From contig MGYU01000006.1 of NCBI GenBank assembly GCA_001801885.1, forward strand, positions 1-52,464: a stretch of DNA of 52,464 bases, read 5' to 3'. The first letter of the stretch is position 1; every line of letters starts with the position of its first letter. The translations under genes and the position numbers were made by a program. This document shows positions 37,344-41,549 of this stretch, one piece after another. The notes under the pieces are model-generated. The model ran no database searches. It saw nothing but the letters and a program-made list of their open reading frames with translations, and was not told the origin of the DNA. The stretch is from Gammaproteobacteria bacterium RIFCSPLOWO2_12_47_11. Its GTDB lineage: Bacteria; Pseudomonadota; Gammaproteobacteria; Eutrophobiales; Eutrophobiaceae.

Positions 37344-39377
37344 ATGACCCTGAGTTTCGAAATTGCCGGTGGCCAGATTGACGGGGCACGTGACTATCAG
37401 GAAGATGCCTTTCTGATCACCCATTTGGCTGGAAACGCAGCTCTTGTTGTCGTGGCTGATGGCATGGGTGGCCATGCCGCCGGAAATGTGGCCAGCAACA
37501 TGGCGGTACAGGCATTCAATAAGTATGTTTCCAGTCATTACCCTGCCGACCACGTACACGAAGTCCTCAATGGCGCCGTATTAAAGGCCAACCATTCTAT
37601 CGCTGAAACAATCAAGGAAACGCCTGCACTGGATGGTATGGGATGTACCATGGTGGCGGCATTATTGCAGGGCAACAATATCTGGTGGGCCAGTGTGGGT
37701 GACAGCCACCTCTATCTCGTGCGCAATCGAGAGTTGAACAAGATTAATGCCGATCACAGTTATGGTGGTTTCCTGGATGCCATGTCCAAGGCTGGCACAC
37801 CGGTTGAACCGGAACCTGGTCTGGCCAGGAATATGCTGATGAGCGCCATAACGGGTGTGGATATAGCAGATATCGATTGCCCCACTTCACCTCTGCAATT
37901 AAAGCACGGGGACAGGATAATCATTTGCAGTGACGGAATGGACACACTCAGTGACGGCAAAATCATCCAGTACAGCGATTGGTCAGAATCCCCCAAGGAA
38001 TGTGTTGACGCATTGCTGAATGCAGTAGAAGAAGCAGAGTCGCCAAAACAGGACAACACTACTGTCCTGATCATCAATATTATTGATAAGGCTATCCAGG
38101 CCAGCGCCGCTGCCAAAACCGAAGAAGAAGTTGATGATGAGGACATTACTGATACTCGGGGTAACGAGAGAGCAGCTGCAAGCAAACTGGAAAAAACTGT
38201 TGAATTGACAGAGGATAGCGCCGAAGAGCCGGACGAGATTGAACTGCCTGAACTCGATGCCGAATCAGTACCGGAACCTCCTGTCCCTCCAGAGCCGGTT
38301 GTTACTCCCAAAGATGACAAAACAGGACCCAAAAAAAATACGGGCCTGATGATTGGCATTGCCGCTGCAGTCATCATCGCAGTTGGAATCGGCGGCTTCT
38401 TCATGTGGGGCAAAGAAAAAGCGCCAACTACAACCCTTGAACCGGATACCACAAGTATTACTCCTGCCGAACCTGAGGAAGAAATTGCAACCGAAGTTGA
38501 ACCGGAAGAGGTTACTGAAGAACCCTCCGTTGAAGAAATCGAACCTGCAGCAGCAGAACCAGAGCCTGCAGTGACCGCAGAAGAACCTGTCACAGAACCG
38601 GAACCAGAACCCGCACCTGTACCGGAAGCCACAGTTGTTACGAAGGAGGAAAAAGCGTTTACCGATGCCTTGAAGAGTGGTGGTAGCGGGCCTGAGATGG
38701 TGTGGATGCCGGCTGGATCATTTGAAATGGGTAGCCCAAGCAGCTCTACCAATGCCGAAGAACGGCCACGGCATTCTGTGAAGATAAAGAAATTTGCCAT
38801 CAGTAAATATGAAATCACCTTCAGCGAATATGACAAATTTGCCAAATCGACGGGGAGAAAAATCCCGGATAACATGTATATGGATCGCGCCACCACCCCG
38901 GTTATCTTCATCAGTTGGGATGATGCCTATAACTATGCCAAATGGTTAGCTGAAGAAACGGGCAAAAAGTACCGTCTGCCCAGCGAGGCGGAATGGGAAT
39001 ATGCAGCTTCAGGTGGAAAGAAAAGCACCTTCTGGTGGGGTTTCAATGAAGAGGTTGGCAAGGCCCATTGTTTTACCTGTGAAAGCCAGTTTGATCCACG
39101 CAAACCCACCAAGATAGGCAGTTTTCAGCCTAACCAGTTTGGCATCTACGATACAGCGGGTAATGTTGCCGAATGGGTACATGACTGCTGGCATGAGAAC
39201 TACAATGATGCGCCAGGTGACGGCAGTATTTGGGAAGGGGGTGATTGCACCATGCGCGCAGCACGTGGCGGATCATACATCAGTCCACAACAATCCATAC
39301 GCACAGCCAAGCGGGACAAGTTCAAATCCAACTCGGGTTATGACCATATTGGAATAAGGTTGGTACGAGAAGAATAA
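37344..39377 (+). CDS. PP2C-type Ser/Thr phosphatase – TM – acidic linker – SUMF1/FGE-sulfatase-like domain fusion protein
   Basis: PP2C motifs ARDYQEDAFL, VVADGMGGHAAGNVAS, IICSDGMDTLSD, QDNTTVLIINI; TM GLMIGIAAAVIIAVGIGGFFMWG; SUMF1-like MVWMPAGSFEMGS, YRLPSEAEWEYAASGG, YDTAGNVAEWVHDCW, AARGGSY. Confidence 0.9.
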   Translation: MTLSFEIAGGQIDGARDYQEDAFLITHLAGNAALVVVADGMGGHAAGNVASNMAVQAFNKYVSSHYPADHVHEVLNGAVLKANHSIAETIKETPALDGMGCTMVAALLQGNNIWWASVGDSHLYLVRNRELNKINADHSYGGFLDAMSKAGTPVEPEPGLARNMLMSAITGVDIADIDCPTSPLQLKHGDRIIICSDGMDTLSDGKIIQYSDWSESPKECVDALLNAVEEAESPKQDNTTVLIINIIDKAIQASAAAKTEEEVDDEDITDTRGNERAAASKLEKTVELTEDSAEEPDEIELPELDAESVPEPPVPPEPVVTPKDDKTGPKKNTGLMIGIAAAVIIAVGIGGFFMWGKEKAPTTTLEPDTTSITPAEPEEEIATEVEPEEVTEEPSVEEIEPAAAEPEPAVTAEEPVTEPEPEPAPVPEATVVTKEEKAFTDALKSGGSGPEMVWMPAGSFEMGSPSSSTNAEERPRHSVKIKKFAISKYEITFSEYDKFAKSTGRKIPDNMYMDRATTPVIFISWDDAYNYAKWLAEETGKKYRLPSEAEWEYAASGGKKSTFWWGFNEEVGKAHCFTCESQFDPRKPTKIGSFQPNQFGIYDTAGNVAEWVHDCWHENYNDAPGDGSIWEGGDCTMRAARGGSYISPQQSIRTAKRDKFKSNSGYDHIGIRLVREE

Positions 39378-39380
39378 ACT

Positions 39381-39510
39381 GGTGATTGGTAATTGGTGAA
39401 TAGTGATTTGTAACAAACACACCAATCATTAATCACCCGCCGCTCCTGCGCATCCTTGCGCCCGCGGCATACCGTACTTCCTGTACATAATCACCATTCA
39501 CTAATCACTT
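39381..39510. repeat. Dispersed-type inverted repeat between convergent genes
   Basis: GTGATTGGTAATTGGTGAATAGTGATT (left) is inverse of AATCACCATTCACTAATCACTT (right); GC-rich centre CGCCGCTCCTGCGCATCCTTGCGCCCGCGGCAT. Confidence 0.6.
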
Positions 39511-39803: not shown

Positions 39804-40596
39804 TTTATGTAGTCTATAAGCTTATCTTGAATGATATGAGGGGACGAGCATGAAAATGCGCCCGAATAGTATTGCTGTCCTGGTTTACGGTATTTCACTA
39901 TTACTGGCCTCCACAACCGCAAAGGCCGGCGATTCCTTTTTTTCCATCAACTTCGGTTACAGCAGCCATGGTCATTATGCCAGCCCCTACAGATATATTT
40001 ACTCACCTGCCTATTATTACAGTATACCCTCACCATTTTTCTTCGGTTATACAAGCTATTATTACCCGGTTTTCCCCTACTATTATACTCCTGTAGTCTA
40101 TTACCGGCCGGTTTTCCCATATTACAATCCCTATGCGTATCAACCATATTGGTACACGTATCGCGTAATATATCCATATTCCTATATCTACGGTTATTAT
40201 CCGTACAACAGTTATTATTCCTATTACCCGCTTAAATATTACAAGTATCAACATGATCATCACTATGATCATTTCTATGGTCACGGCAATAAACAACAGT
40301 ATGCCGGGTCATATAAAAAATATTCCCCGGGAAACAAGCGGGATGTGCTACAGAGATCAGGCAACCGTGATATTAAAACTGCAACTGTTATAGAAACTAA
40401 CAACACGCAGCAAAGAAGCGTGGAATTGGTAAAACAAAGGACCTTATTGCAACAAAGACCGGTCAATCAAAGAACAGGACGGCCTGCTGTCAGACCTTCA
40501 AGGAGCGAACAGCAAACACTCGCAGCCACTGATCCACGGTCTGTCCTGCAACGACGACAGAACAGACAGGACATGGAACGCGGCAACAACCGGAAT

Positions 40597-40948
40597 CAAC
40601 TGACTGAACAATCAAGTCAGTCAAAACGTAACGCCAATAATGCAAGGATAGACCGCCTGATCAATCGGGACAGGAAGCCGTCACCAACGGAAATGGAAAG
40701 CTCCAACAGGCCAATTCAACAGAGACAGGCCATTAATCAACATAGTGACCGTCGCGCCCAGACCCGGGTAACCACAATAAATAAAAGAGTGATAGCACCG
40801 CCAACACAGGCAAGGCAGACTTATCAGCAACAACCCGTTCGCAGAAATTTGGACAGCCCGGGCAACGGTTCATTTCGCCAGCCACCCGCTGTGACTGTGC
40901 GCAGCAATCAAAACATCCAAAGACAGGTTGCCCGGCAACAACCTGTTC
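40597..40948. repeat. Copy 1 of perfect 352-bp direct tandem repeat
   Basis: CAACTGACTGAACAATCAAGTCAG…CGGCAACAACCTGTTC, identical by eye to 40949-41300. Confidence 0.95.
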
Positions 40949-41300
40949 CAACTGACTGAACAATCAAGTCAGTCAAAACGTAACGCCAATAATGCAAGGA
41001 TAGACCGCCTGATCAATCGGGACAGGAAGCCGTCACCAACGGAAATGGAAAGCTCCAACAGGCCAATTCAACAGAGACAGGCCATTAATCAACATAGTGA
41101 CCGTCGCGCCCAGACCCGGGTAACCACAATAAATAAAAGAGTGATAGCACCGCCAACACAGGCAAGGCAGACTTATCAGCAACAACCCGTTCGCAGAAAT
41201 TTGGACAGCCCGGGCAACGGTTCATTTCGCCAGCCACCCGCTGTGACTGTGCGCAGCAATCAAAACATCCAAAGACAGGTTGCCCGGCAACAACCTGTTC
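40949..41300. repeat. Copy 2 of perfect 352-bp direct tandem repeat
   Basis: Immediately abuts copy 1, ends at CAACCTGTTC (41300) where sequence continues GCAGCAATATAGAAAGG. Confidence 0.95.
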
Positions 41301-41549
41301 GCAGCAATATAGAAAGGCCAGGCAATAGAAGCTCATTCCGGCAGGAACAAATCGTATCAGCACGAAACCAACAGGACGGCCAGCAGGCACGTCCTGTTGC
41401 CAGGGAAAGGGAACCCTCCACCGAAAAAACGATAAGCATGCGTGTTGGAGAGCGGAGATCTTTAAATCAGAATTACGGCTATGGCATGCAACAAAGGCAA
41501 ATGTCCCAAAGAAGTTTTGCCGGCGCCGGTAAAAGGCGCTAGGCGATAA

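Follow-up and report, generated by a model that had tools for sequence, protein, structure and literature searches.

An exact 352-bp tandem duplication that interrupts a lineage-specific gene in a gammaproteobacterial draft genome is probably an assembly artefact

The window analysed here is the whole of contig C6 (52,464 nucleotides) of the draft genome of Gammaproteobacteria bacterium RIFCSPLOWO2_12_47_11. One of its genes is interrupted by an exact tandem duplication of 352 bp. This duplication is probably a false duplication made by the assembly, and one copy of the unit is probably not in the real genome. The artefact is favoured because the draft is fragmented, because no other exact repeat longer than 76 bp was resolved in the sampled sequence, and because unmerged overlaps are present elsewhere in the same assembly. 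From these observations, and from relatives of the gene that are free of the duplication, we infer that the join at 40948|40949 is itself false.

The two copies of the unit were compared by self-comparison of the window at lag 352, and 352 of the 352 letters are the same. The match exhibits zero extension to the left and zero extension to the right, and the repeat ends exactly at the join. TRF reported a single array (40581-41300, period 352, 2.0 copies), and the pair is the only exact repeat of at least 25 bp within the window. A chance origin of this identity is excluded because of its length. The unit is not a multiple of three (352 mod 3 = 1), so the 369-aa frame that starts at 39850 stops at the TGA at 40957-40959 and the remainder of the gene lies in another frame. 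The reading of the initial annotation, in which two identical copies shift the frame into this TGA and the rest of the gene continues in a second ORF of 204 aa, is confirmed. Its statement that collapsing one copy restores a 446-aa ORF also holds, where (1693-352)/3 gives 447 codons, that is 446 aa and the stop. The coordinates of the features are shown in Table 1.

Table 1. Features of the interrupted gene, the duplicated unit and the surroundings of its breakpoints (positions in the window).
Feature	Position	Strand	Remarks
5' part of the interrupted gene	39850..40959	+	369-aa ORF; relatives in G021 and G020
3' part of the same gene, shifted frame	40928..41542	+	204-aa ORF
Copy 1 of the 352-bp unit	40597..40948	+	All 352 letters shared with copy 2; the match does not extend to the left or right
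Copy 2 of the 352-bp unit	40949..41300	+	Same as copy 1; assembly context
Left 11-bp direct repeat, CGGCAACAACC	40581..40591	+	Longest in-register direct repeat (lag >100) within the gene up to the end of copy 1
Right 11-bp direct repeat, CGGCAACAACC	40933..40943	+	Ends 5 bp before 40948|40949
Left hairpin, 7-bp stem, two registers	40599..40623	+	Starts 2 bp after the unit begins
Right hairpin, 8-bp stem, 8-nt loop	40923..40946	+	Ends 2 bp before the junction

The protein encoded by the interrupted gene has a signal-like N terminus and a Tyr-rich stretch, followed by a long low-complexity tail rich in Gln, Arg, and Asn, and it has no match in Pfam. Among the 53 genomes of the family, detectable relatives of the gene were identified only in G021 and G020 (38 and 42% identity, respectively, over the matched parts only). 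The scan of genome contigs with the gene as query found no relative, and the scan of viral contigs with a 30-mer from the 352-bp unit found no match. The genus g1 consists of this genome alone. Both the G020 and G021 versions of the gene are uninterrupted ORFs, and no long tandem duplication or repeat of the 352-bp kind was found in either of them. Both genomes share with the window the order of PP2C-FGE protein, small ORF, the gene, MFS transporter, and CYTH protein. In G018, the small ORF adjoins the MFS gene with nothing between them (L133:2040-3555, compared with 39850-41542 in the window). The comparison of these loci indicates that the interrupted gene evolves fast, is specific to its lineage, and was inserted among conserved neighbours, and that the ancestral state is most simply one without the duplication.

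Two other readings of the repeat were rejected. A native internal repeat of the protein is rejected because the relatives lack the repeat and the unit is out of frame. A mobile element is rejected because the unit lies within the coding sequence of a single gene and no other copy of it exists in the genome.

The draft genome consists of 2,345,669 bases in 115 contigs, is 91.8% complete, and is probably a metagenome-assembled genome. Repeats were surveyed in a sample of 932 kb (40%) of this draft. Apart from the 352-bp pair, the exact repeats within contigs of the sample are at most 76 bp long. The next lengths, 86, 90, and 95 bp, all come from contig ends that overlap but were left unmerged (C21/C64, C115/C12, and C12/C5), and no repeat length between 95 and 352 bp was found. 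The exact 352-bp repeat within a contig therefore exceeds what the assembly otherwise resolves in the 932 kb sampled. A repeat limit in the range of 76-86 bp could reflect a de Bruijn k of about 77. Several contigs terminate in a dispersed element of ~70 bp, which indicates that even short repeats broke the assembly. Where repeats of 70-95 bp already break an assembly, an exact repeat of 352 bp in the middle of a contig is not expected, except if it was unrolled by paired reads or if the join came later than graph assembly. In 180 kb of G007, a better assembled relative, no local exact repeat of at least 25 bp was found, so, to the extent that this small control can tell, the family does not habitually carry such duplications.

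The sampled sequence includes seven N runs, and one of them has duplicated flanks. This gap of 17 N (L008:14778-14794, on contig C2 of this draft) lies between two identical 24-bp stretches, one the suffix of its left flank and the other the prefix of its right flank, and the region L008:14754-14818 is clearly a false duplication made by scaffolding. Insertion of Ns despite overlapping flanks and wrong repeat numbers have been described as errors of IDBA-UD and CLC assemblies (PMC7111523). The duplication in the window resembles such scaffolding errors (PMC7111523) in that the sequence of a contig end would be repeated at the start of the next and the repeat ends at the join, with L008:14754-14818 as another instance in the same assembly. 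It differs in that the overlap is 352 bp rather than 24 bp and no N run is present at 40948|40949.

The exact junction has a microhomology of 0 bp, and ends picked at random most often give this value (53%). The initial annotation had noted no evident microhomology, and this is correct for the exact junction and does not extend to its surroundings. Two in-register copies of CGGCAACAACC, separated by the lag of 352, each lie 5 bp upstream of a breakpoint, and 12 of the last 16 bases before the breakpoints match (12/16). Only 5 of 93,433 random end pairs from the second half of the gene do as well as this 11-bp repeat (~5e-5, for a feature chosen after the fact), and judging from the run list all five are the CGGCAACAACC repeat itself. 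The right hairpin has an energy of -7.3 kcal/mol when folded as DNA (z -2.24). The whole gene has about four such hairpins, and the ends of the unit lie 2 bp from two of these, which was also noticed after the fact. The 11-bp repeat and the hairpins together suggest that the breakpoints were guided by sequence and are not random.

The letters of the junction are TGTTC, and a switch inside the 11-bp repeat would leave GGAAT. The simplest account of these letters is a join on an imperfect overlap of 16 bp (12/16) in which the letters of the left side are kept. Such a join could be made by a tolerant scaffold joiner or, less easily, by a polymerase that extends a mismatched 3' end. Nothing was found in the literature on a mismatch-tolerant scaffold joiner, and since no paper was found this step stays hypothetical.

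Under the favoured explanation, two contig ends, or two paths of the assembly graph, would have one stretch of 352-368 bp in common and would have been joined end to end without being merged. The shared stretch would thereby be written twice, and the gene would look frameshifted. The joiner may further have taken the 16-bp imperfect suffix/prefix overlap, which is built on the 11-bp repeat, and kept the letters of the left contig. The identical copies with a repeat that ends at the join, the unmerged overlaps elsewhere in the same assembly (24 bp at the N gap and 95, 90, and 86 bp at contig ends), a repeat length above the 76 bp that are otherwise resolved in the 932 kb, and the uninterrupted gene of the relatives in the same place all argue for this explanation. 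The zero microhomology is also typical of random ends, unlike the junctions verified in bacteria. Against the explanation stand the missing N run at the join and the failure to find a second N-free case in the 932 kb sampled, and the 352 bp far exceed the other unmerged overlaps (24-95 bp). Blind joining end to end predicts neither the 11-bp repeat nor the hairpins near the ends, and with paired reads an assembler can unroll a simple loop of two copies more readily than it can a dispersed repeat. The 11-bp repeat in register makes it less likely that purely random joining of ends is the full story. An origin of the junction in merged read pairs is rejected by geometry, as reads of more than 368 bp would be needed.

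A rather unlikely alternative, though one with several observations on its side, is that the duplication is real, arose very recently in the sampled population, and was produced by template switching or by unequal exchange, with the 11-bp repeat and the hairpins as guides. Such an event would have inactivated a dispensable secreted low-complexity protein, and recombination between the copies could remove the duplication again. Non-random breakpoints are suggested by the in-register repeat 5 bp from the junction (5/93,433 random end pairs) and by the hairpins, which lie 2 bp from each end of the unit. The zero divergence between the copies fits a recent event, and relatives such as G018 do without the gene, so cells would tolerate losing it. 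Spontaneous short tandem duplications of bacteria (PMC3411829, PMC3161906) are likewise head-to-tail exact copies with a short repeat and hairpins near the ends. However, the homology of the verified cases is at the junction itself, where the duplication in the window has none, and its 11-bp repeat, in register, is found 5 bp away. Microhomology has been reported at 40 of 40 sequenced amplification junctions of E. coli (PMC3161906), and short homologous repeats at all endpoints of confirmed Salmonella rearrangements that were selected partly for that feature (PMC3411829). A switch within the 11-bp repeat would also leave GGAAT instead of TGTTC, so five mostly mismatched 3' bases would need to have been kept, and the assembly sample has no other resolved exact repeat above 76 bp.

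It is very unlikely that a chimeric molecule from library amplification or a minority variant gave the junction, with the assembler unrolling the loop while most cells have one copy. This would account for the homology near the junction and for the lack of a second copy of the locus in the genome, but a rare junction must then beat the direct path in the assembly, and the five mismatched bases are left unexplained too. The initial annotation had offered a reversible on/off mutation beside the artefact; the draft state and the unmerged overlaps favour the artefact, and the on/off function has no support, as the relatives have no repeats there. A reversible switch (phase variation) by gain and loss of a 352-bp copy is extremely improbable. 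The duplication does put the 3' part of the gene out of frame, and repeats of 352 bp are long enough for RecA-dependent loss. The two relatives that have the gene, G020 and G021, nevertheless exhibit no such repeat, the duplication is seen in one genome only, and the gene is lineage-specific, without known function, and not detected in most of the family. The composite view, in which a real duplication guided by homology and hairpins reversibly switches off a fast-evolving secreted protein, is highly improbable.

The finding is ordinary on either reading. Should the duplication be an artefact, it adds another falsely disrupted gene to the public draft genomes and serves as a reminder to check exact tandem duplications in metagenome-assembled genomes against reads. 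If it is real, it would be an ordinary recent mutation in a dispensable gene. A useful internal check is to set a suspicious repeat against the longest repeats that the same assembly resolves at other sites, and against the overlaps that remain at its contig ends and N gaps.

Other features of the locus and of the genome were also observed. The stretch that separates the small ORF from the MFS gene varies in the family, where it is empty in G018 and is occupied by the present gene for a Tyr/Gln-rich secreted protein in genera g1 and g9. The gene at 37344-39377 encodes a 677-aa protein in which a PP2C-type phosphatase domain and an FGE-sulfatase (formylglycine-generating-enzyme-like) domain are joined by an acidic linker that includes a hydrophobic segment, and this fusion protein is conserved in the same position across the family. 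The start of contig C68 (L055:1-190) exhibits a 50-bp exact direct repeat at lag 101 that includes part of the dispersed element, and it is another spot where the assembly halts in a repeat. The window also has a dispersed intergenic repeat at 39386-39510, with a core of about 50-75 bp and TGATTAGTGA-like flanks. Some contigs of the draft terminate in this repeat. It is MITE- or REP-like, has about fifteen more matches in the sampled part of the genome, and is also present in other genera of the family (G020, G045, G028, G005, G051, and G022).
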